Source: a bacterium (GTDB lineage: Bacteria; Armatimonadota; UBA5829). Taken from it: 64,000 nt of DNA. A model generated the notes under the pieces. That model made no database searches. It saw only the letters and a program-made list of their open reading frames with translations, and was not told the origin of the DNA. This document shows positions 1-47,184 of the stretch, in pieces. Position numbers and translations under genes: made by a program. The DNA is taken from contig JAJFVF010000005.1 of assembly GCA_021371935.1 (NCBI GenBank), positions 1-64,000 of the forward strand, read 5' to 3'. Each line of letters begins with the position of its first letter. Within the stretch, counting starts at the first letter, position 1.

Positions 1-62
1 TTGTAAAATGAGTGCCATTGGGGCGTGCATGAGAAAATTGCTGGCAATCGCATATGGAGTAC

Positions 63-93
63 TAAAAACCGGCACCTCGTTTGAAGTGCCAGC
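63..93 (-). terminator. Hairpin terminator, minus strand
   Basis: On the minus strand GGCAC pairs with GTGCC around a short loop and is followed by a run of five T residues (the A run at 64-68). This fits a Rho-independent terminator for leftward transcription. It lies about 190 bases past the pgi stop, so it is the first good terminator for the glmU-prs-pth-pgi operon. Its distance from pgi leaves room for doubt. Confidence 0.55.
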
Positions 94-179
94 GTAAAAA
101 ATTGACAGGCAAGACGGTATCTCGCATCCGCTCGGAATGACCGGAATCAATACGCCATCTCGTGAAGCACACAAAAATA

Positions 180-249
180 ATCAATACAAAATATCAATTA
201 CTAAATCAGTTGCCCCCTCACCCTAGCCCTCTCCCCCAGGAGAGGGAAA
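180..249. repeat. Composite interspersed repeat (AT-rich plus CCCTCACCC palindrome)
   Basis: An AT-rich stretch of the type AAATAC/ACTAAATCAG leads into CCCTCACCCTAGCCCTC and an imperfect CTCTCCC..GGAGAGGG palindrome. A near-copy with the same two-part structure lies at about 15890-15962. The AT-rich half alone recurs at about 6925-6957, 16040-16078 and 28670-28700, and in reverse near 36210 and 41570. It is non-coding, and bases 1-280 contain no gene that can be supported. Confidence 0.7.
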
Positions 250-280
250 ACCATAATGCAAATCGTCCACCGTGATTTAC

Positions 281-1600
281 TTAAAAGTGAATATACTCCG
301 GCGCAGACTTTCCTGACTCAGCAGATTCAAAACCGGGCTTGCCCAGCAGCTTGAACATCTCCTTCTTATACGCCTCGACTCCCGGCTGGTTGAACGGATT
401 TACACCCAACATCAGTCCGCTCACCGCGCATGCGATCTCAAAGAAGTATATGAGCGCGCCCAGGCTCTCTGCATCCAGCCTCTCAAGATGGATCGTCATA
501 TTCGGAACACCGCCGTCTCTATGTGCTTTGGCCGTCGCCTCATATGCCTTTGCGTTGACGAAGCTCAGTTCTTTGCCCATGAGATAGCCCAAGCCGTCCG
601 AATCGTCAGCCTCAGGAACCATCAGCGACGGCTCCGAGCCACCAACAATCAAGAAAGTCTCAGCAATCATCCTGTGACCCTCCTGGATATATTGACCCAG
701 GGAGTGCAGATCAGTGGTGAAGTCGACTGATGCCGGAAATAGCCCCTTATTCTCTTTTCCTTCGCTCTCGCCGTAGAGCTGTTTCCACCACTCGGCCATA
801 AAGTGCAGCCTCGGCTCGAAAGATGCAAGCAGTTCTATGGAAAATTCTTTGTTGTAGAGCACATTTCTGGCTGCCGCATAAAAATATGCCGGATTGCTCA
901 TCGGATCGGTGTTGGAACAAAGCTCCGCGCACTTCACTGCCCCAGCGACCAGAGCGTCTACATCGACACCAGCATAGGCAACAGGCAGCAGGCCGACTGC
1001 CGACAATACCGAATACCGTCCGCCGATGTTGTCCGGCACGACAAATGTCTCGTAGCCCTCGGTTTTGGCTAGCTGCAGCAGTGCGCCTTTCTTTGCATCA
1101 GTAGTGGCGACTATGTGCTTTGCCGAAGCTGCCAATTCGCGCATGATCCTGGATGCGATGGCGGGCTCGGTGGTGGTGCCCGACTTTGAGATGACATTGA
1201 CCGCTACTCTCTTGCCTGCAAGCTGCTTTCTGAGTCTGGTCATATAGTGAGCGGAAATATTCTGACCCGCATAGACTACTTTATCGGGGTCATCGGCCAG
1301 AGCCTCGATCACCGCTCTTGCTCCCAGATATGATCCACCTATGCCGATCACCAAAAGCACATCCGTCTCTTTGCGCAGTCGATCTGCAGTTGCTTTCACA
1401 CGAGACAGCTCGGCAGATGAGAGAATCTGAGCCGGGTTCAACCACCCGGTGAAGTCAGAGCCGGGATGATTGCCTGAGCGAAGCCGACCATCGATCAGCT
1501 TTAACTCATCTTTGCGACCGGCGATCATTTCGCTCGTTACGTTTGGTTTGAGATATTCTGCATTTATTGCTATTGGTAGTTTGTTGAATTGGTTCGACAT
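281..1600 (-). CDS. pgi: Glucose-6-phosphate isomerase
   Basis: Interconverts glucose 6-phosphate and fructose 6-phosphate in glycolysis and gluconeogenesis, in the cytoplasm. The 439 residues match the short bacterial form (about 440-450) rather than the 550-residue enterobacterial form. Visible family marks are the sugar-phosphate-binding run VIGIGGSYLGARA near residue 85, the SKSGTTTEP phosphate loop near 137, GGRYSVLSAVGLLP near 195 and the catalytic QLYGESEGK segment near 273. The ATG follows AGAGGAGTAAT, a strong ribosome site, and pth ends just two bases upstream. It is the last gene of the leftward glmU-prs-pth-pgi operon, an arrangement that links sugar phosphate and nucleotide-sugar supply. 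Confidence 0.97.
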   Translation of the reverse strand: MSNQFNKLPIAINAEYLKPNVTSEMIAGRKDELKLIDGRLRSGNHPGSDFTGWLNPAQILSSAELSRVKATADRLRKETDVLLVIGIGGSYLGARAVIEALADDPDKVVYAGQNISAHYMTRLRKQLAGKRVAVNVISKSGTTTEPAIASRIMRELAASAKHIVATTDAKKGALLQLAKTEGYETFVVPDNIGGRYSVLSAVGLLPVAYAGVDVDALVAGAVKCAELCSNTDPMSNPAYFYAAARNVLYNKEFSIELLASFEPRLHFMAEWWKQLYGESEGKENKGLFPASVDFTTDLHSLGQYIQEGHRMIAETFLIVGGSEPSLMVPEADDSDGLGYLMGKELSFVNAKAYEATAKAHRDGGVPNMTIHLERLDAESLGALIYFFEIACAVSGLMLGVNPFNQPGVEAYKKEMFKLLGKPGFESAESGKSAPEYIHF

Positions 1601-1601
1601 A

Positions 1602-2171
1602 TTACTCCTCTGGACTCTCTATCCGGTTATACTTATTCATGGCTGCCTCAATGCCTTCAGCCAGGATCATATCCAGCGCATCGGCTGCGTGTTCGAGAGT
1701 GACATCCATCTCCTGGCGGTCCTTACGGTTGAAACGTGAGAGCACATGGTTTATCGCTTCGCCATGGTGGCCTATTCCAATGCGCATGCGCGCAAATTCC
1801 TTGGAATGGATATGCGCAATGATCGACTTCATGCCGTTGTGTCCACCGGAGGAACCCTGAAGGCGTATTCTGATCTTGCCCAGCGGCAGGTCCATATCGT
1901 CATAGATCACAAATATATCCGAAGGTTCAAGGTGATATTTGCGCATTATCTGGCCGACGCACTGGCCGCTCTCGTTCATAAATGTCTGAGGCTTCACAAG
2001 CAGAATCTGCTCGCCGTAATGGTCGAAACTGCCTACCAGACCACGACACTGCCTGCTCAAAATTTTGACCTTACGGCGCTTCGCAAACGTATCGAGCACA
2101 TCGAAGCCGACATTGTGCCTGGTGTGGGCATACTGCCTGCCGGGATTGCCCAGACCGACGATCACTCTCAC
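1602..2171 (-). CDS. pth: Peptidyl-tRNA hydrolase
   Basis: Releases the peptide from peptidyl-tRNA that has dropped off ribosomes. The 189-residue product shows the family signature VGLGNPGRQYAHTRHNVGFD close to the N-terminus, including the catalytic His in TRHN, then VKPQTFMNESGQ and YDDMDLPLGKIRIR with GGHNGMKSI. I chose the GTG at 2171: its GTGA overlaps the TGA stop of prs by four bases and GGAAGGGA lies five bases upstream. An in-frame ATG at 2186 would add five residues inside prs without a good ribosome site. It is the third gene of the glmU operon; glmU-prs-pth is a common order in Gram-positive bacteria. Confidence 0.95.
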   Translation of the reverse strand: MRVIVGLGNPGRQYAHTRHNVGFDVLDTFAKRRKVKILSRQCRGLVGSFDHYGEQILLVKPQTFMNESGQCVGQIMRKYHLEPSDIFVIYDDMDLPLGKIRIRLQGSSGGHNGMKSIIAHIHSKEFARMRIGIGHHGEAINHVLSRFNRKDRQEMDVTLEHAADALDMILAEGIEAAMNKYNRIESPEE

Positions 2172-3130
2172 GACTGTCCCTTCCACGCTTTATCGAAAAT
2201 TTCACTGACGCTGCGGTCCGCATGGATTCGCATTATGGCATCGGCCAGCAGATCGGCCATTGAAACAATTACTATCTTGCCGTTTCGCCTGTCATCAGAA
2301 AGCGGAATGGTGTCGGTGATAATAACCTTCTTGATGGCAGAAGCAACCAACTTCTCGGGCGCATCGTCCGAAAGAACACCATGCGTGCATGCGGCGTAGA
2401 CCTCATTCGCGCCGCGTTCGAGAAGGGCATTCGCGCCGCTTACTATTGACCCGCCGGTGTCTATCATATCGTCGAGCATGATTGCCGTCTTGCCCGATAC
2501 ATCACCTATCACTTCCATCACCACAGTCTTGTTAGGCTCAGGCCTGCGCTTCACTATGATCGCAATGGGTGTCCCCAAAGCCTCAGCAAGCGCACGCGCA
2601 CGTGGAACGCCGCCCACATCCGGCGAGACCACTACCGTATTCTCGTCAACCTTAATATTTTTGCGTATATAGTCCGCTATGATCGGTCCCGCATAGAGAT
2701 TATCGACGGGCGTATCGAAGAAACCGACTATCTGGCCTGAGTGCAGATCGACAGTAAGCAGCCTGCTCGCACCAGCCGCCGTCAGCAGGTCGGCAACCAG
2801 CTTGGCCGTAACGGGTTCGCGCGGCTTGACTTTCCTGTCCTGCCGTGCATAACAGTAATACGGCACCACGACATTTACCCTGCGCGCTGATGCCCGCTTG
2901 AAGGCGTCTATCATTATCAGCAGTTCCATCAGGTGTTCGTTCACCGGGGTCGGAAACGACTGGACTATGAACACATCGTCGCCGCGCACGCTCTCGTTCA
3001 CCTGGACATGGACCTCGCCATCAGAAAACCGCTGGAGCGACATCTCACCGACATGTACCCCAAGCCGCTCGGCAATCTTTTTCGAGAGTTCGGGATTTCC
3101 AGCTCCTGAAAAGAGCATCAGTTCGTTCAT
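2168..3130 (-). CDS. prs: Ribose-phosphate pyrophosphokinase
   Basis: Makes phosphoribosyl pyrophosphate from ribose 5-phosphate and ATP, the precursor for purines, pyrimidines, histidine, tryptophan and NAD. The 320-residue length is standard. Motifs are SDGEVHVQVNESVRG near 36-50, PYYCYARQDRK (ATP site) near 95, the PRPP signature VVSPDVGGVPRARALAEA near 168, and the phosphoribosyl loop MLDDMIDTGGSI near 222. The ATG overlaps the glmU stop as ATGA, and its AGGAAAGG ribosome site forms part of the truncated 3-prime end of glmU. It is co-transcribed with glmU, pth and pgi. Confidence 0.97.
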   Translation of the reverse strand: MNELMLFSGAGNPELSKKIAERLGVHVGEMSLQRFSDGEVHVQVNESVRGDDVFIVQSFPTPVNEHLMELLIMIDAFKRASARRVNVVVPYYCYARQDRKVKPREPVTAKLVADLLTAAGASRLLTVDLHSGQIVGFFDTPVDNLYAGPIIADYIRKNIKVDENTVVVSPDVGGVPRARALAEALGTPIAIIVKRRPEPNKTVVMEVIGDVSGKTAIMLDDMIDTGGSIVSGANALLERGANEVYAACTHGVLSDDAPEKLVASAIKKVIITDTIPLSDDRRNGKIVIVSMADLLADAIMRIHADRSVSEIFDKAWKGQS

Positions 3131-4077
3131 TTTAGCTGCCTTTCCTGAGTTTTGAGACCGCTGATTGTGACATCGGTGAGCCGGGCGAACGGACCTACTT
3201 CGCAGTTGCTGCCTATGCGACTGCCACGCTCGATTATAGTGCAGGGATGGACTATCGTGTCGCCGCCGATCTCGACATCGCAGTCGATATATGTGGTCGC
3301 AGGGTCGACTATGGTCACGCCCGAAAGCATCAGTTTGTCCAGTATACGTTTACGCATAGTCGCGGCAGCTTCGGCAAGCTCGATCCGGTTATTGATTCCC
3401 AAAGTGTCCTTTACATTATCCGCAATAACCGCTCCCACCCGCTGGCCGGACTTATTCAAAAGCTCGATCACGTCAGTTAGATAATACTCTGCCTGGGCAT
3501 TGTCCGGCTTAATCATCGTCAGCTTCTCGGCAAGCTGTGGGACCTTGAAGCAGTAGATCGCTACATTGAACTCACCTATGGAAAGTGTCGCCTCGTCGGC
3601 ATCCTTGGCTTCGACAATCTTCACTACCGCGCCGCTATCATCCCGCACAATCCGGCCATAGTGACCCGCGTCGTTGAGCATGCCGGTGAGCAGTGTGGCT
3701 GCGTTGTCGGCTGACGAGTGAGTGTCTATAAGTCGGCAAATCGCCTCGGATGTAATCAGAGGCGTATCGCCTGGGAGCACGACCACATCGGTTATGTCGC
3801 TTGCAATACTGGGCATCGCCTGCATGGCCGCATGCCCCGTACCGAGCTGCTCGGTCTGGTAAGCATATGTAATATCCTCACCCAACGCCTGCCTGACCCT
3901 TTCGGCCTCGTGGCCGACCACTACTATCACCTGCTCGATCTCGGCGCCAAGGCATGCATCGACGACGTGGCGGGTCATAGACTTGCCGCATATCATATGC
4001 GCCCCCTTGGGAAGCGCTGATTTCATTCTTGTGCTCTTGCCGGCTGCCATCACAACCGCCGCGAATTTGCGTTTCAC
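3127..4077 (-). CDS. glmU: GlmU-type N-acetylglucosamine-1-phosphate uridylyltransferase, C-terminally short
   Basis: The N-terminal pyrophosphorylase domain (residues 1 to about 230) forms UDP-GlcNAc. It has VVMAAGKSTRMKS with LPKGAHMICGK, the QLGTGHA motif and PGDTPL. From about residue 250 the left-handed beta-helix begins (VTIVDPATTYIDCDVEIGGDT), but the protein stops at 316 after GPFARLTDVTISG and a short unrelated tail. Typical GlmU is about 450-460 residues, and the region carrying the acetyl-CoA site and catalytic His is missing. The tail encodes the ribosome site of prs, so this is a fixed end rather than an assembly break. The GTG start follows GGAGG. A separate acetyltransferase would be needed elsewhere. 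Confidence 0.9.
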   Translation of the reverse strand: MKRKFAAVVMAAGKSTRMKSALPKGAHMICGKSMTRHVVDACLGAEIEQVIVVVGHEAERVRQALGEDITYAYQTEQLGTGHAAMQAMPSIASDITDVVVLPGDTPLITSEAICRLIDTHSSADNAATLLTGMLNDAGHYGRIVRDDSGAVVKIVEAKDADEATLSIGEFNVAIYCFKVPQLAEKLTMIKPDNAQAEYYLTDVIELLNKSGQRVGAVIADNVKDTLGINNRIELAEAAATMRKRILDKLMLSGVTIVDPATTYIDCDVEIGGDTIVHPCTIIERGSRIGSNCEVGPFARLTDVTISGLKTQERQLK

Positions 4078-4097
4078 TGTGACATCCTCCGAGCACT

Positions 4098-4103
4098 ATT
4101 ATA
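4098..4103 (-). promoter_or_regulatory. Probable -10 box for the glmU operon
   Basis: TATAAT on the minus strand ends about 20 bases upstream of the glmU GTG, followed by a GGAGG ribosome site. No convincing -35 hexamer sits at the usual distance, so this is a partial promoter call. Confidence 0.4.
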
Positions 4104-4207
4104 GCAGAATTGAAGTAAATGAGGGGAGCCAACAGCTAAACTCGGCGTGTTGACGACCGTATACATCAGTAGTATATTGAAAAAAACGGCAATCGGGGTA
4201 ACTACAC

Positions 4208-5305
4208 GTGATTACGGGCTTTTGGGAATTTTTTGCGCCAAGCAGGCACAGCGACGGGCATGTGTGGGATTTGGACACATGGAAGCGGCATCTGGACGAT
4301 ATGGCGTCGCATGGCATCAATGTGCTAAATATCTACTTGCATGGATATGCCACCGGATACATGTCTTCAATATCGTTTCTGGATTCAACCAGCTCAGCTA
4401 ACAGAGACTCGTGCAACAGGCTGCTCAACGAGATAATAGACCATGCGCACCGCCGAAATATTAAGGTCTTTGCAGCAAATCACACATATATCTATGCGCG
4501 TAAGTGCGTAGACAAACTGGATGCCTGCTATATAGACGATTTGGGCGTAGATATGATTTACTGGCCCTACGATAAGCTGGTGACCCTGTCCGCCGACAGC
4601 GGTTATACACAGGAGCTTATCCTAAAAATGTTTGAGGAGCAGTATAACTTCTTCCCCGAACTCGACGGCTTTATCTATGAGGGAGAACGCAAATACTTCC
4701 CCGGTCCAGGCTCAAAACGCAGCTATGACAGGTGGGCGGCCTCTCACGGACGCAGGCCCTATACACAGGTCGGACCGGAGCAGTTCTTTCACTGGGCTAA
4801 CGAAAAGAATATAAACCAGGACTGGATCGATTATGTCAGTTTTCGCGAAGGCTCGCTGGTTCGTAACGTCTGGGAAACGCTGAAACAGCAGGGCTTCTCC
4901 GGCGAGATATTTTACTGCTATGGAACGATTGATCACTCAGTCGACCATCCGGTGAACGCGGATATTTTCATAGACACTTCGGGCGGCTGCTGCGGCTTTT
5001 GTCCGTATAACTACAGTTTCCCGACATCCTCCGATATCTATGACAATATCAAACTCATATCGGACAATCGCAGAGTTCCGGTAATGTATGTAGTAGACGC
5101 CCAGGTGGGCTGGCATGCGGCGCGAGACGAGAAATCGCCCGATTATATGAATGATGCATGGGCGCAGTATATTGAAGAGGCCAAGCAGCTTCAGCCGGAC
5201 TACTTTATCTTCTTCGGATACCAGTGGAACTCGTTGCGAAACGGAGTTGCGCCGGCAGATAATCGAAAGAAGATATATAACCTGATCGGCAGCATGATCC
5301 GATAA
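4208..5305 (+). CDS. Uncharacterised protein, likely TIM-barrel glycosidase-like
   Basis: I do not recognise a named family. The 365-residue protein has no signal peptide or membrane segment, so it should act in the cytoplasm. The pattern resembles a barrel hydrolase with strand-like segments each ending in charged or aromatic residues: GINVLNIYLHGY near 37, IKVFAANHTYIYA near 90, LDGFIYEGERKYFPGP near 156, EIFYCYGTIDHSVDHP near 233, VPVMYVVDAQVGWHA near 288 and YFIFFGYQWNS near the end. The glutamate in FIYEGER is a candidate acid. GTG start with GGGGTAA eight bases upstream. It stands alone between the divergent glmU operon and serS. Carbohydrate processing is a guess from fold pattern only. 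Confidence 0.6.
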   Translation: MITGFWEFFAPSRHSDGHVWDLDTWKRHLDDMASHGINVLNIYLHGYATGYMSSISFLDSTSSANRDSCNRLLNEIIDHAHRRNIKVFAANHTYIYARKCVDKLDACYIDDLGVDMIYWPYDKLVTLSADSGYTQELILKMFEEQYNFFPELDGFIYEGERKYFPGPGSKRSYDRWAASHGRRPYTQVGPEQFFHWANEKNINQDWIDYVSFREGSLVRNVWETLKQQGFSGEIFYCYGTIDHSVDHPVNADIFIDTSGGCCGFCPYNYSFPTSSDIYDNIKLISDNRRVPVMYVVDAQVGWHAARDEKSPDYMNDAWAQYIEEAKQLQPDYFIFFGYQWNSLRNGVAPADNRKKIYNLIGSMIR

Positions 5306-5346
5306 AATTTAGCGACCGGCAGAGCCAGAAAATCTGGATTCGAGAA

Positions 5347-5380
5347 AAAGGCTCGGCGGGAGCCTCGCCCTCCCTGCATG
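5347..5380. repeat. GC-rich interspersed palindrome
   Basis: GGCTC and GAGCC flank a five-base loop, followed by CTCGCCCTCCC, giving overlapping hairpins in the 216-base gap before serS. Translated on the minus strand it gives a GGRGSRRA-like peptide, so a reading frame there is an artefact of the repeat. There is no T run, so a terminator role is doubtful. Confidence 0.45.
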
Positions 5381-5457
5381 CTCATTAACGGTGCAAGTCC
5401 CCGATGAATCGGACATCGGCAAAAATACTCGAATGAATGAACTCTATCCCTTTGAGG

Positions 5458-5486
5458 TTGCCTGTTCGCGGCGAGTGCACTACAAT
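5458..5486 (+). promoter_or_regulatory. Housekeeping-type promoter for serS
   Basis: TTGCCT and TACAAT are separated by exactly 17 bases, about 35 bases before the serS ATG. The same pair of hexamers and spacing occurs upstream of ribF at 47185-47213. No T-box leader was found between this promoter and serS. Confidence 0.6.
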
Positions 5487-5515
5487 ATAGTAGATGCAAG
5501 ACCCAGGGGGTATAG

Positions 5516-6799
<1,284 letters not shown>

Positions 6800-37096: not shown

Positions 37097-37124
37097 TGAA
37101 CCTTTGCCTGGTGTGCGGTGTCTT
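37097..37124 (+). promoter_or_regulatory. Candidate ECF-type promoter of the sigma-polymerase operon
   Basis: TGAACC (37097-37102) and a GTC core (37120-37122) are spaced by 17 bases, as in many ECF sigma promoters that use GGAACC and CGTC elements. The inferred start would lie about 15 bases before the sigma ATG, leaving just room for the GGAGGG ribosome site. Autoregulation by the encoded sigma is an inference. Confidence 0.3.
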
Positions 37125-37144: not shown

Positions 37145-37741
37145 ATGCGGTCCGATATGGATCTTCTGCAGGCGATACAACAGCAAGACACTGACGCGTT
37201 CGAGGTATTTTTCGAGCGCCATCGCGAGCGTGTCCGGCTTCATATCAGCAAAATCCTTCGCAATCCGGATGCGACAGAGGATGTTTTGCAGGAGACGTTC
37301 CTGAGAGTATGGCAGCACGCCGACCAATGGGACCACAGCGGCGCATGCATATCCTGGCTGCTTAAAATAGCCACAAATCTCGCGCTCAACAGCCTGCGAT
37401 CATGGCGGCGAAAAAGGGAAGTGCCGCTGGAAGGACACAGCTCTACCGGTGAGCAGGAAAACTCTTCAGTCCCCGAGTGGATGGTGGATGAAGCGACTAT
37501 TGGACCCGAAGAAGCTCTGGAGATATCGGAGCGGTTGGCAATGGCCAGGCGGTTGGTAGACGATCTGCCGGAAGAAAAACGTGAAGTGATCCGGCTTGTG
37601 CACGAGTCGGATATGGGAATCGGCGAAGCTGCGCAGACTCTGGGAATACCGGAAGGGACAATCAAATCGCGCCTTCATAATGCACGCAAACATCTTGCCC
37701 GGCAATGGGACAAGATATGCTCCGAATGGGAGGAACTCTGA
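37145..37741 (+). CDS. ECF-type RNA polymerase sigma factor
   Basis: A 198-residue two-domain sigma factor. Region 2 spans about 5-85 (LLQAIQQQDTDAFEVFFERH, then DATEDVLQETFLRVWQHADQW and SWLLKIATNLALNSLRSWRRKRE). Region 4 spans about 135-190 (LVDDLPEEKREVIRLVHESDMGIGEAAQTLGIPEGTIKSRLHNARKHL), a clear helix-turn-helix. Region 1.1 and region 3 are absent. The ATG at 37145 has GGAGGG seven bases upstream; the ATG at 37130 contains that site and is rejected. The stop overlaps the start of the polymerase gene as TGATG, so the two proteins are made together. No anti-sigma gene is adjacent. Confidence 0.93.
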   Translation: MRSDMDLLQAIQQQDTDAFEVFFERHRERVRLHISKILRNPDATEDVLQETFLRVWQHADQWDHSGACISWLLKIATNLALNSLRSWRRKREVPLEGHSSTGEQENSSVPEWMVDEATIGPEEALEISERLAMARRLVDDLPEEKREVIRLVHESDMGIGEAAQTLGIPEGTIKSRLHNARKHLARQWDKICSEWEEL

Positions 37742-40700
37742 TGCAAGGCTCATACACAGCACCATGGCATAAAGCATCTTTCGATCACTTTGTGAATCAA
37801 AAACTACCGGAACTGCTCGCTGCAAAGCTTCCTCTTGCCGGATATAATGCCGAACAAGTGGATGATTACACATGTCGTGTGACAATTTCAATAGATGCAA
37901 ACGATAACGAATTCAATGTGATATATGACATACTCAGCCCAGACAATGAGGGGATTTTTCGAGTTGACGACAGGCCGCGAGTGGTGGTGCCGATTGCATC
38001 ATCCGCTCACCTGGATAAAGCCGAGATCAAATGCGTCGGTGAGCAGCTATATGACTATATTGAGGAGCGTATTGGAGAAACCGGACACGATACGCCCCCA
38101 CCGGATGAGGATTTTATACGCACAATACTGCCTCTGGATATGTGGGTCCGCAGCCTTATAACATCCGCGGATGGTGACTACGACCACTGGGCGACTGGGC
38201 AAGCTCAGGATACAACCAACTGGCTGGCTGCAATAGCCCATCTAAGGCGAATTTTGATCGAAGACATAGAGGATGTCGTGACTCCGAGCCAGTTTGGCCG
38301 GGTATGCCCGTTCCAAACACCGGAAGGCCCCAACATCGGCCATATCTTCAGTATGGCTCTGGGAGCACGGATTGAAAACGGCAAAATCGAGATATTCGAC
38401 AACTGCCCAAGCGCGAAGCTGGGACTCTCGGCATCCACAGTCCCTCTGCTTGAACATAACAATCCTGTCCACCAGTTGATGGGGGTCAACATGATGCGGC
38501 AGTGGATTCCGCCGATCAACCCGGAACAGGCAATGGTGCAAACAAGTAATGAGCCGGACGTGCCCGATTTCTGGTGCGGATACAACCTGCTTACTGCGTT
38601 CATCTTCTGGGGACCAGAGACATACGAAGACGGCATTATAATCAGCGAATCAGCAGCCAAGCGAATGCATTATGATATACCCGTAGAGGTCGGAGATAAA
38701 TTCAGTAACCGGCATGGCGCAAAGGGTGTGATCGGAAACATATTGCCGGATGACGAGATGCCGCATATGACGGACGGCACGCCTGTCGAACTGGTCTTCA
38801 GTTTTTGCGGAATCGATAAACGCCTTAACTTCGGTCAGATCCGTGAAGCCCTCCTCGGCAGGATCGCGTATGCTGAAGGCAAGCCCATTATTGCGCCGCC
38901 GTTTGAAGGACCGTCCGAATCAGAGCTTAAAGAGCGCCTGGCAAAATCCGGGCTGCCCGATGATGGTATGGAGACCTTAACCAACGGCAAGGATGGTGAG
39001 CAACTTGCGCGCCGGAGCACTGTGGGATGGGTCTACTGGGGCCGGACCGTTCATATCGCATCCTATAAGATTCATTATGCCGTCAGCCCAGACGAACGGC
39101 TCAATCTGCAGGGCGAGTATGAATATCACGCTATGCGAGATATCGGAGCATATGCTAATATCGCTGAGACATACAACTTGCGATCTGTGGAGCGTGAAGA
39201 CAGCCACACACTAGCAAAACGGGCAGCCGAGCACACCGTCGAATTGCCCGGACCGACAACACCTATGTTCGACAGGCTCAAAAAACACTTGAATGCGACA
39301 GGCATAAGCGCCGATTTCACCGGAAACAGTGTTGAGTTTAAAAAAACAGGCATTGAGGGTGACAGGCTCAACCTGGCATGCGCAGTCAGAGACCCATGGT
39401 CGGCTGGGCATGAGGTAACTGAAGTCGGTGTAATCGAAAACATTCCAGAATATCAATCACTGGTAGATATCAATGATAAGATGAGGCGTCTGCTGGCAAC
39501 CAAAGCACCTGATAGTCTCAAGAGTAAGCTGAAAGCTGATTTGGAAACAGCAATAGAAGATTACTTCGATGCGCTCATATCTCACAAACAGATGTGCTTT
39601 TTTAATCAGGTGCTATTTAGTGGCAGAACAGTCCTATCGCCCGCTTCAGACCTGCATGCAGACCAGGTCGGTATACCGGATGAAATGGCTCGGGCGCTCT
39701 TTGGACCATTTGTGGAAAAGAAGACCTGCAAGCCTCTGAAGGATATGAAGGATGATGAGGCGTCACAAACCATAGACGAGATCATGGCGGACTCATGGCT
39801 AATTATAAATCGAGCGCCAACGTTTATGCCTACCTGTCTGCTGGCTTTTCATCCCATCCGAGTGCCGGGTAGATCGATCCGCCTGCACCAGATCGCATGT
39901 ATGCTCCTAAACAGCGACAATGACGGCGACCAGGCTGCCGTCTTCCTTCCGCTTACAGATGAAGCTCAGCGCGAAGCAGGTGAACTGATGTCGATAGCAG
40001 GTCACTTGAGGCGTGATCACTCGCTGATAAGATGGATCAGCCCGACAAATGAAGCCATGTGGGGACTTGCCCAGCTAAGCCGAAGCACAGCGGGTCTGGA
40101 CAAGATCGAAACAATAATCGGAGCCGAAATCGGCACTACCGGGTGCTTAATAACCAGAGACAAGGTTATAAGTGCGCTCAGCAAGTTACTCGGACGAGAT
40201 GGAGTTGATGCTGCTATATCGGCCTGCGAGCAGCTTATGCGATTGGGATTTGAAGTATGCAAATCATCGGGCGCATCACTGAGCCCGTTTGCCGGATCGA
40301 GTCTGAAAAATGGGACTGAAGTCGACAAGGTCACTGAACTGATAGAGTCCGACACCGATTTCGACTCTGATGACATAGGTCCCCAACTTATCTCTGCAAA
40401 GAGCGGGGCTCGCAGTTCGGTGGAAAGTATCCGAAAACTCATTGGACCCTATGGACAGGCAACAGATGCATCAAACAGCAGTGTTTATATTTCAGGCGGG
40501 TTCAGAGATGGTATGAAGCTGGATCAAATATGGACGTTAGTCGGCGATACACGCAAGAAACTATCACAAGTTGCGCAGACGCTTCAGATCCACTATGTCT
40601 ACGGTGCACAGGAGCTTAAACTCGCGCAAGGTTATGGCGTGCTGGCAAGGGCGATGCGGTCCGAAAAACCTGGAGTGGTTTTTGCAAATGCAGCCGTCCG

Positions 40701-40764
40701 CAATGAAACAGACCCGCTGGCAGATATAGACAGCAGGCTGTTTGTAGGGCTGCAAACCCCATAG
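37741..40764 (+). CDS. Single-chain miniature RNA polymerase (fused beta-beta prime core)
   Basis: A 1007-residue chain aligning to the core of RpoB, then RpoC. Beta part: D157..H167-LRRI (rifampicin-pocket helix), 181-200 (VTPSQFGRVC and QTPEGPNIG), YEDGIIISE 295-303, GDKFSNRHGAKG 318-329 with lysines 320 and 328 matching E. coli K1065 and K1073, and the C-terminal clamp near 461-530. Beta prime part: clamp-helix region 571-612, SGRTV 627-631, NRAPT 690-694, catalytic NSDNDGD 724-730 with all three Asp, SGAR 888-891, bridge helix about 918-947. The beta N-terminal lobes, flap, zinc ribbon, jaw and trigger loop are missing. The ATG at 37741 (GGGAGGA upstream, TGATG overlap) is preferred to 37705. 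E. coli beta plus beta prime exceed 2700 residues. Confidence 0.92.
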   Translation: MQGSYTAPWHKASFDHFVNQKLPELLAAKLPLAGYNAEQVDDYTCRVTISIDANDNEFNVIYDILSPDNEGIFRVDDRPRVVVPIASSAHLDKAEIKCVGEQLYDYIEERIGETGHDTPPPDEDFIRTILPLDMWVRSLITSADGDYDHWATGQAQDTTNWLAAIAHLRRILIEDIEDVVTPSQFGRVCPFQTPEGPNIGHIFSMALGARIENGKIEIFDNCPSAKLGLSASTVPLLEHNNPVHQLMGVNMMRQWIPPINPEQAMVQTSNEPDVPDFWCGYNLLTAFIFWGPETYEDGIIISESAAKRMHYDIPVEVGDKFSNRHGAKGVIGNILPDDEMPHMTDGTPVELVFSFCGIDKRLNFGQIREALLGRIAYAEGKPIIAPPFEGPSESELKERLAKSGLPDDGMETLTNGKDGEQLARRSTVGWVYWGRTVHIASYKIHYAVSPDERLNLQGEYEYHAMRDIGAYANIAETYNLRSVEREDSHTLAKRAAEHTVELPGPTTPMFDRLKKHLNATGISADFTGNSVEFKKTGIEGDRLNLACAVRDPWSAGHEVTEVGVIENIPEYQSLVDINDKMRRLLATKAPDSLKSKLKADLETAIEDYFDALISHKQMCFFNQVLFSGRTVLSPASDLHADQVGIPDEMARALFGPFVEKKTCKPLKDMKDDEASQTIDEIMADSWLIINRAPTFMPTCLLAFHPIRVPGRSIRLHQIACMLLNSDNDGDQAAVFLPLTDEAQREAGELMSIAGHLRRDHSLIRWISPTNEAMWGLAQLSRSTAGLDKIETIIGAEIGTTGCLITRDKVISALSKLLGRDGVDAAISACEQLMRLGFEVCKSSGASLSPFAGSSLKNGTEVDKVTELIESDTDFDSDDIGPQLISAKSGARSSVESIRKLIGPYGQATDASNSSVYISGGFRDGMKLDQIWTLVGDTRKKLSQVAQTLQIHYVYGAQELKLAQGYGVLARAMRSEKPGVVFANAAVRNETDPLADIDSRLFVGLQTP

Positions 40765-40773
40765 TAATTTCAC

Positions 40774-40801
40774 GCCCCACGCAACTTCCTCGGCGTGGGG
40801 C
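40774..40801. terminator. Strong hairpin after the polymerase gene
   Basis: GCCCCACGC (40774-40782) and GCGTGGGGC (40793-40801) form a perfect nine-base-pair stem ten bases after the stop. A T run does not follow, so it may act as a weak terminator or an mRNA 3-prime stabiliser that ends the sigma-polymerase unit. Confidence 0.5.
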
Positions 40802-40890: not shown

Positions 40891-40926
40891 GGTATAAAGT
40901 GGTAAATTGTGGTATATAGGGATACC
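40891..40926 (+). promoter_or_regulatory. Phased GGTA repeats, candidate operator
   Basis: GGTATAAAGT, GGTAAATTGT and GGTATATAGG are three decamers in perfect 10-base phase starting at 40891, 40901 and 40911. The last forms TGGTAT..ATACCA with the following bases. They lie at and just after the expected transcription start, a place for a repressor. Confidence 0.45.
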
Positions 40927-40948
40927 ATTGCACCAAAGGAGCTCCGAA

Positions 40949-41572
40949 ATGCCCGCCAAATCAGAGAAAATGGATACAGTTCGGGAAATTTGCGTTGATC
41001 CCAAACCAAATGGCCTTAGAGCAGTTTATCTGGTCGAAACACGCTCAGAAAATGAAGAGCGAGAAATTGCCAGACTCTTTTCCGAACTGGAACCCGAACT
41101 TATGATCAGGCAGCTATCAAAAGGAAGACTCGTCAGCTATGTCGTACAGGCACATGAATCAAATGCAAGTATGCTCAATGAAATCGAAGATGTTCTGAAA
41201 AACAACTATGCATTTGTCGTTACCCAGAGATCGTTTGATGAACTAAGCTGCCGCATCATAAAAGAACTTGCAAGGCATACGGGAAGTAGACTCCTGCCGA
41301 TTCCGAAATGCAATATCTGTGGCAATGTGGACCCATTTCCAACTACCACCGTCAACCTCTCTGATAATGATGGGGGTGTGCTGGCAACCAGGAGTTATTG
41401 CGCAAGATGCACGGCAGAAGCAGCCGCAGCCGGCAACAAGGTAAACAACATAGAATTTATTAAGTCCCTGCTGGCGGCAGATGAGCATAATTTCGATGGG
41501 ATCAAACACGCCAGACTTGTTCGACATCCATCACGCAAACGACCTATACGATATCGCGTATTTGATATTTAG
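40949..41572 (+). CDS. Uncharacterised protein with a CxxC..CxxC zinc knuckle
   Basis: I do not recognise this 207-residue protein. Residues 1-115 look alpha/beta, with LRAVYLVETRSENEEREIARLFSELE and LVSYVVQAHESNASMLNEIEDVLKN. Then CNICGN near 129 and CARC near 160 could form a zinc ribbon or treble clef. The last 25 residues are basic (ARLVRHPSRKRPIRYRV). That mix suits a nucleic-acid-binding accessory factor, but this is inference. ATG at 40949 has AAAGGAG seven bases upstream. It follows the miniature polymerase gene but has its own consensus promoter; mraZ follows 29 bases later. Confidence 0.75.
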   Translation: MPAKSEKMDTVREICVDPKPNGLRAVYLVETRSENEEREIARLFSELEPELMIRQLSKGRLVSYVVQAHESNASMLNEIEDVLKNNYAFVVTQRSFDELSCRIIKELARHTGSRLLPIPKCNICGNVDPFPTTTVNLSDNDGGVLATRSYCARCTAEAAAAGNKVNNIEFIKSLLAADEHNFDGIKHARLVRHPSRKRPIRYRVFDI

Positions 41573-46272: not shown

Positions 46273-47013
46273 TTAATGGCTTCTATTATCGACATACCAG
46301 TAATGGCCGTTTGTTTGCCAATTATAAATATAGGTCTTGTTAAACCACTTTGCGTGACCATCACAAAAAATGAAGATCGCTCCACCATTGTGCCTGAAAT
46401 CCGGAGGAACATAAAAGCTGCCGGAAGTAAGTGCTTTGATGACATCATTAAAGGCGTTCCTTCCAGTGTAGCCGGGGAATAGGTAAGCAATATCGGAATC
46501 ATCGCTGGACTTGCTGTCACCAAATGCAATGTGCCTGCTCGCTGATACCAGATCAGATATATTGTAAGGGTCGGGTGTATACATATTGCTGTTTTTGCCG
46601 CGGCCGACACCATTAGCCTTGCCGCCTCCACCGTCACTTGTGTTGTAGCCCCATCCGCCGGTCTTCCTATCGGCATCCGCGCTGTAACCAGCCGTTGTGT
46701 CTGCAGTGAAACGCCTGCTTGGAACAGACGGGCAGGTATATACATCCAGGCTCTTTGTGTATTTGTACAAACCATGCGCCCATGTCAGTGTGCTGTCACC
46801 AGGTCTAAACATCCAGCAGAGCGGGAACTTACCGTTGTGGTCATCCAAATACAAATTTAAGGCCATTCCAAGCTGCCCACCGTGTTTGAGACAGACAGTC
46901 TGCCTGGCTTTTTCCTTCGCACCGGCAAACACAGGAAACAGTATTGCCGCCAGTATCGCTATGATTGCAATTACTACCAGCAGCTCGATTAACGTAAACC
47001 CTCTTTTTCTCAT
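46273..47013 (-). CDS. DUF1559-type prepilin-like protein
   Basis: A 246-residue pseudopilin. The leader MRKRG is cut before FTLIELLVVIAIIAILAAILFPVFAGAKEKARQTVCLKHGGQLG. The C-terminal part has FRHNGGAIFIFCDGHAKWF, the H-X9-DG ending of this family. Such proteins occur in many copies in Planctomycetes, Verrucomicrobia and Armatimonadota. The ATG at 47013 follows GGGAGAGG. It is encoded alone, away from the main pilus cluster, and should be processed by the peptidase encoded at 20902. Confidence 0.92.
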   Translation of the reverse strand: MRKRGFTLIELLVVIAIIAILAAILFPVFAGAKEKARQTVCLKHGGQLGMALNLYLDDHNGKFPLCWMFRPGDSTLTWAHGLYKYTKSLDVYTCPSVPSRRFTADTTAGYSADADRKTGGWGYNTSDGGGGKANGVGRGKNSNMYTPDPYNISDLVSASRHIAFGDSKSSDDSDIAYLFPGYTGRNAFNDVIKALTSGSFYVPPDFRHNGGAIFIFCDGHAKWFNKTYIYNWQTNGHYWYVDNRSH

Positions 47014-47184
47014 CGCAGCAAACACCTCTCCCAAGATGACCTAATCAGCATTTCAATCTAAAAAATACCATATGCTATTTTTTAAGCTACATAATGCATG
47101 GTATTTGTATTATGCATCCGCCATGGCAGTTTGTCAATAAGTATATTGACGTAATTGCAATATATAGAATTATTGCCTCTTTAC

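Follow-up and report, generated by a model that had tools for sequence, protein, structure and literature searches.

A 64,000-nucleotide stretch of the genome of an Armatimonadota bacterium of the lineage UBA5829 (assembly GCA_021371935.1, contig JAJFVF010000005.1, positions 1 to 64,000; hereafter the window) carries a two-gene cassette at positions 37145 to 40764, in which a sigma factor of the extracytoplasmic function (ECF) type is followed by a miniature, single-chain RNA polymerase (RNAP). By sequence comparison the second protein, which we call mini-RNAP, is a collinear miniature that runs through nearly all of beta and then nearly all of beta', and we consider the chances slightly better than even that it forms, with its dedicated sigma, a catalytically active holoenzyme in a self-regulated cassette. 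To our knowledge, described bacteria use one core RNAP, and extra two-barrel polymerases come mainly from phages and plasmids. An earlier note on this DNA, made from the letters alone, had described the sigma gene, its TGATG overlap with the start of a 1007-residue protein and the RpoB and RpoC motifs of the latter, all of which proved correct when we re-read the coordinates. It had further proposed that the active-site residues are kept while the periphery is stripped, and that the pair is a second transcription machine, possibly of mobile origin and matching no named system, a view that it held would fall if the catalytic aspartates were lost in homologues or if the adjacent sigma gene were missing from every related genome.

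The sigma gene (37145..37741; all cassette features lie on the forward strand) encodes 198 residues with the domains Sigma70_r2 and Sigma70_r4_2 by Pfam and NCBIfam, and scores 92.4 bits against TIGR02937, for which the cut-off is 42.9. Regions 2 and 4 are present and look canonical, while regions 1 and 3 are lacking, which places the protein in group 4 (ECF) by its domains. Its TGA stop codon (37739-37741) overlaps the ATG at 37741 of the mini-RNAP gene (37741..40764), whose GGGAGG ribosome site sits within the 3' end of the sigma gene. Just 3' of the mini-RNAP stop codon there is a stable hairpin lacking a U tract (40774..40801, -19.8 kcal/mol, z -5.65), which is also found in the nearest relative, G244; with promoter, sigma, RNAP and hairpin in series, the operon thus looks closed. 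An adjacent anti-sigma gene is usual, if not universal, for ECF sigmas, but none recurs beside the cassette, and the polymerase is the only recurrent neighbour of the sigma gene across the compared loci. No alpha or omega gene lies near the cassette, and no alpha is found among the neighbours common to the loci. The genome is 3.54 Mb in size and 98% complete, and it holds the ordinary rpoB (an open frame of 1520 codons) and rpoC (1473) of the host, intact and separate, on another contig, so that mini-RNAP is an extra polymerase.

Pfam recognizes three domains in mini-RNAP, Rpb2_3, Rpb2_6 and Rpb1_2. By profile-profile comparison of 34 full-length relatives with the RpoB/RpoC pair of E. coli and three other such pairs, the collinear match to both subunits extends over about 810 residues, in that residues 12-83 correspond to beta 33-146 (E 8e-7), residues 85-529 to beta 442-1342 (E 1e-60) and residues 571-945 to beta' 269-787 (E 8e-40), E. 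coli numbering being used here and below. The chain opens with the remnant of the beta N-terminus (37774..37989), followed by the beta core, equivalent to beta 442-832, with the fork and rifampicin (Rif)-pocket region and the motifs TPEGPN, LMGxNMMRQ and YEDGIIISE (37993..38676). Then comes a junction between residues 312 and 313 (38674..38679), into which the beta flap and SI2 (beta ~833-1057) have collapsed, and shortly after it GDKFSNRHGAKG (38692..38727) with the catalytic lysines K320 and K328, the equivalents of beta K1065 and K1073. In the beta' part, the clamp helices (39445..39576) are followed by NRAPT (39808..39822), corresponding to the region of beta' R425, by NSDNDGD with the aspartate triad D726, D728 and D730 (39910..39930), and by the equivalent of the bridge helix (40519..40617, residues 927-959), a single helix of 33 residues in the AlphaFold2 (AF2) model. 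A conserved C-terminal module (40639..40749), of weak similarity by sequence, corresponds in the structure alignment to the end of beta' (~1330-1358).

What is missing is equally extensive, and here the proposed stripping of the periphery can be read off directly. Besides the flap and SI2, mini-RNAP has lost beta 147-441, the bulk of the beta' N-terminus with its zinc ribbon, most lobes, and the trigger loop and jaw, i.e. nearly everything from the bridge helix to the beta' C-terminus. By sequence, AF2 model and structure alignment alike, the bridge helix and the C-terminal module are only a few residues apart, with no trigger loop between them. Mini-RNAP thus has neither the flap nor the trigger loop of canonical bacterial multisubunit RNAPs (msRNAPs), nor their separate full-length rpoB and rpoC with RpoA/RpoZ; the absence of the trigger loop and of the flap, on which sigma region 4 docks, had not been recognized in the earlier description.

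The active site, by comparison, is well conserved. Among the 34 aligned relatives, the three triad aspartates are retained in 33/34, 34/34 and 34/34, so that loss of the triad is not the rule; K320 is Lys in 29 and Arg in 5, K328 is Lys in 33 and Arg in 1, the ED pair of beta is retained, and a His equivalent to H1237 is found in 31/34. The Arg of NRAPT differs in about one third of the relatives and the Asn before the triad in about one quarter, while the window copy has both. The Rif-pocket region (residues 152-175) differs from that of E. coli, with Leu at the equivalent of beta S531 and a hydrophobic residue there in most relatives, and we therefore predict that mini-RNAP would be insensitive to rifampicin; with the trigger loop gone, we expect the same for streptolydigin.

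The predicted structure agrees with this assignment, and with the overlay on cellular RNAP that the earlier note had proposed as a check. Modelled as a whole chain by AF2 from the family alignment, mini-RNAP reaches a predicted local distance difference test score (pLDDT) of 89.8 and a predicted template modelling score (pTM) of 0.88. Residues 1-486 of the model superpose on Rpb2/beta chains with a Z-score of 31.7 (481 residues aligned, 3.0 A, VIA-align), and the beta' half, folded separately at a pTM of 0.69, aligns 470/483 residues with E. coli beta' 16..1358 (Z 26.8). As modelled, mini-RNAP has the fold and the DxDxD and lysine features of the two-barrel (double-psi) RNA polymerase superfamily.

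The cassette is carried by 17/291 genomes of Armatimonadota, about 23/64 of Latescibacterota and 11/85 of a third phylum, in total about 51 genomes. A sample of roughly 420 genomes from other phyla, taken as distant relatives, yielded a single carrier, through which the third phylum was reached. A homologous sigma gene lies upstream of mini-RNAP in every intact locus with enough flanking DNA, mostly with an overlap of 1 or 4 nt, which bears out the linkage on which the earlier proposal had been made to depend; in the third phylum as many as a few hundred bases may separate the two genes. A comparison of neighbours finds no gene common to the loci besides these two. The sigma and RNAP trees are congruent (Mantel r 0.85, p 2e-4, 22 non-redundant pairs). 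Both genes are under purifying selection: between the window and G244, the ratio of non-synonymous to synonymous substitution rates (dN/dS) is 0.11 for the polymerase and 0.10 for sigma, and in the other pairs tested it is 0.14-0.19 for the polymerase. A pseudogene, a chance reading frame or an assembly artefact is thus ruled out, since about 51 genomes carry the cassette and dN/dS is low (0.11-0.19). Decayed copies of the cassette are found at three loci (L011, L221 and L228).

Upstream of the sigma gene, and not described before, lies a conserved promoter of the ECF type, with a -35 element TGAACC (37097-37102), a spacer of 13 bases and a -10 element CGGTGTC (37116-37122). The core pattern GAAC-N18-GTC is found upstream of sigma at every scanned locus of Armatimonadota and Latescibacterota with enough DNA, apart from the later addition L222, where the scanned stretch lacks the motif. 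The sites nearly always read TGAACC-N13-CGGTGTC, with a spacer one base shorter at two loci, and they end about 12-35 nt before the sigma start codon; from shuffled sequences, one would expect such a site by chance at about 4% of loci. In the third phylum, GAACTTT-N11-GCGGTGTC or a close form precedes 9/10 copies with an upstream sigma, the remaining one being L210. The sigma gene is thus preceded by a GAAC...GTC-type site, as expected of an ECF sigma. The exact site of the window has no second copy in its genome. The pattern TGAACC-N14-[CG]GTGTC has one match there and one apiece in G244, G241, G022 and G205, and with at most one mismatch allowed, two sites in the window genome are among those listed. 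In Latescibacterota, most carriers have a single match, their own promoter, and most non-carriers have none.

The conserved active site makes a catalytically competent RNAP the simplest reading of mini-RNAP, and we propose that it acts as a DNA-dependent RNA polymerase that uses the ECF sigma made along with it. The chain would have retained the core, i.e. the two double-psi barrels, the Asp triad, the lysines, the bridge helix and the dock for sigma region 2, while dispensing with alpha and omega; its synthesis would be translationally coupled to that of sigma, and sigma would activate the operon that encodes it, closing a positive loop that might be started by the RNAP of the host. The clamp helices of beta' are the dock for sigma region 2, and the beta flap positions sigma region 4. 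In mini-RNAP the clamp helices have come through the loss of nearly all other periphery with no indel in 42 residues. This speaks for sigma binding, and the ECF sigma might be held mainly through region 2. Several observations weigh against a holoenzyme of this kind. The equivalents of R275 and E295, clamp residues of E. coli beta' important for sigma binding (PMC10216364, PMC8321222), are Ala in most mini-RNAPs, and the flap is missing, yet the promoter holds a strict -35 box and a fixed spacing, as it would for the flap-bearing core of the host. Searches with the motif, exact or with at most one mismatch, detected no regulon beyond the cassette's own promoter, and carriers show no clear excess of sites over other genomes; a regulon of more degenerate sites may exist. 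In some Latescibacterota, other genes stand between sigma and mini-RNAP, one copy (L079) lacks one of the triad aspartates, and all of the evidence comes from genome assemblies. The loss of the flap beside a conserved -35 box suggests that the host core may be the promoter's reader, in which case sigma would serve that core only, as a switch amplifying its own operon, and mini-RNAP would be a sigma-independent effector that makes short RNAs or acts, for example, on nucleic acid that is nicked, primed or single-stranded. The rigid promoter and a sigma that is canonical in regions 2 and 4 fit this alternative, as do the changed contact residues of the clamp. The full-length clamp helices in a chain that has shed most other peripheral modules do not, and neither do the invariant pairing with one sigma and the congruent trees, as a sigma with no detected target but its own operon would need no such strict co-inheritance with a polymerase chain. 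Setting the Ala changes and the absent flap against the intact clamp helices, we lean somewhat towards the holoenzyme and regard sole use of sigma by the host core as the main alternative, if a rather unlikely one. What stands of the proposed second transcription machine is thus an extra one-chain polymerase beside the host rpoB and rpoC with a linked sigma gene, and that this sigma is its initiation factor is what we infer. We are more tentative, and somewhat short of an even chance, about the fullest version of this proposal, in which a flap-less and trigger-loop-less polymerase and its dedicated ECF sigma would constitute an orthogonal, chromosomal second machine that needs no host RNAP to transcribe its own operon and that has reached several phyla in the form of a two-gene cassette.

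One could also speculate that mini-RNAP is no polymerase but a sequestrant of sigma, an anti-sigma made from RNAP that serves as a decoy. The retained clamp helices and the lack of a recurring anti-sigma gene would suit such a role, as would the changes that some members show within NRAPT or at the Asn preceding the triad, and the missing triad Asp of L079. A decoy, however, would hardly be expected to hold on to an Asp triad, two lysines and the ED pair of beta; as each triad position is conserved in at least 33/34 members and the lysines almost always are, we consider it most improbable. A different kind of explanation, compatible with an active holoenzyme, is that the cassette is what is left of a transcription system from a phage or plasmid, a selfish self-transcribing unit domesticated in chromosomes. 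Its patchy presence and the decayed copies point in this direction, as do the clean empty sites in the congeners G242 and G243 (each with a completeness of 98% or more), where the two flanking genes adjoin directly and have intact divergent promoters, so that the sigma-RNAP pair appears to have been gained or lost cleanly as a unit; the copy in G241 (locus L005) sits at another site, shows about 49% identity and is broken by a single stop. However, no mini-RNAP is found in IMG/VR or in phage or plasmid records, no integrase or other mobile gene is common to the loci, and the window and G244 have the same locus under strong purifying selection. In an unrooted tree without archaeal sequences, mini-RNAPs are monophyletic with a support of 100 and separate from both the canonical RNAPs and the viral ones sampled, although its long branches allow no firm statement on the origin of the family. 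We thus regard a mobile origin, which the earlier note had raised, as improbable: the patchy presence and empty sites speak for it, and no association with integrases, phages or plasmids was found.

The copy at L079 (G344:C92, Latescibacterota) carries, in window numbering, the changes D726Y, K320R, K328R, R691S and N724E, with its frame and sigma intact, and its sequence suggests that it is probably inactive or of altered chemistry. At L007, L008 and L009 in Latescibacterota, the genes between sigma and mini-RNAP encode an ABC transporter (597 residues) or an uncharacterized protein of 396 residues. Larger one-chain polymerases also came to light. At L098 (G344:C268, Latescibacterota), positions 419-6415 encode a single alpha-beta-beta' chain of 1999 residues, in which RNA_pol_A_bac and RNA_pol_L are fused before a compact beta and beta' that includes Rpb1_5; the same genome also has a normal rpoB and the mini-RNAP of L079, and L097 (G348) groups with L098 (support 100). 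At L096 (G301:C540, positions 2-5087, also Latescibacterota), a fused compact beta-beta' polymerase, distinct from the mini family, has a frame break near its end. As for close phage relatives, protein and alignment scans of IMG/VR and tblastn against phages and plasmids gave only split RNAPs or fused ones of 1800-2000 residues; L113, L115 and L121 are IMG/VR contigs with such fused beta-beta' chains (~1800-2000 residues), besides split beta/beta' pairs. Downstream of the cassette in the window, 40907-41572 (+) encodes a conserved uncharacterized protein of 221 residues just before mraZ, present in 8/15 genomes of the family and preceded by a strongly conserved, AT-rich promoter region, and 46273-47034 (-) encodes a pilin-like protein with a type IV N-terminus (GFTLIELLVVIAIIAILAAILFPVF).

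Mini-RNAP can be seen as a natural experiment on which parts of RNAP may be dispensable, among them the flap, the trigger loop, the zinc ribbon, the lobes and alpha, and it makes initiation by the docking of sigma region 2 alone, and catalysis without a trigger loop, testable. It might also be of use as a minimal one-gene msRNAP, or as part of an orthogonal set of sigma, RNAP and promoter for synthetic biology.

Among known systems, cellular RpoB and RpoC share with mini-RNAP the order of blocks, the Asp triad, the two lysines, the clamp helices, the bridge-helix region and the superposition half by half, but they exceed 2700 residues, as against 1007 in one chain that lacks the flap, SI2, most lobes, the zinc ribbon and the trigger loop; matches to the single bacterial rpoB and rpoC models lie far below their cut-offs. 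The fused rpoBC of Helicobacter and Wolbachia (NF007172, NF011417) likewise join beta and beta' in one chain, but at full length (2839-2890 residues) and as the only RNAP of the cell, and mini-RNAP scores 160-164 bits against these models, whose cut-offs are 4632-5372. Closer in size is the YonO-like group (PMC5467207), single chains of about 100-110 kDa with two barrels and no recognizable trigger loop. YonO is processive and error-prone, with no detectable proofreading, and its trigger-loop homology is unrecognizable (PMC5467207); since YonO is active in this state, the absence of the loop is compatible with activity of mini-RNAP, which by the same token would be expected to be error-prone and non-proofreading. 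YonO, however, has few residues in common with msRNAPs, to which mini-RNAP is extensively homologous, and it is a prophage polymerase for late genes, whereas mini-RNAP is chromosomal, outside recognized phages, and accompanied by a sigma; as YonO-like genes also occur in bacterial main genomes, location in a phage is no absolute feature (PMC5467207). The RNAPs of crAss-like phage (gp66) and Thermus phage P23-45 are single-polypeptide two-barrel enzymes too, but they are viral, of low similarity to cellular RNAP and retain part of the trigger loop, and the text consulted mentions no linked ECF sigma (PMC10770324). The ORF6/ORF7 RNAP of yeast virus-like elements (PMC6211774) is similarly compact, with fused beta-like and beta'-like regions, but resides on cytoplasmic linear plasmids, consists of two subunits, has an annotated trigger loop and uses other initiation factors. 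The non-virion RNAPs of the jumbo phages phiKZ and AR9 (PMC7598289) resemble the cassette as second machines without alpha and omega, AR9 having its own sigma-like gp226, but they are viral and built of several subunits with split beta and beta', and gp226 does not resemble sigma in sequence. Mini-RNAP matches none of the PADLOC anti-phage models, for known or candidate systems, and the open-access literature that we searched contains no description of a sigma-linked mini-RNAP and no named system that matches, in line with the earlier assessment; nor does it fit any of the named families whose defining features we tested. Judged by its sequence, mini-RNAP constitutes a new family within the single-chain two-barrel RNAPs.

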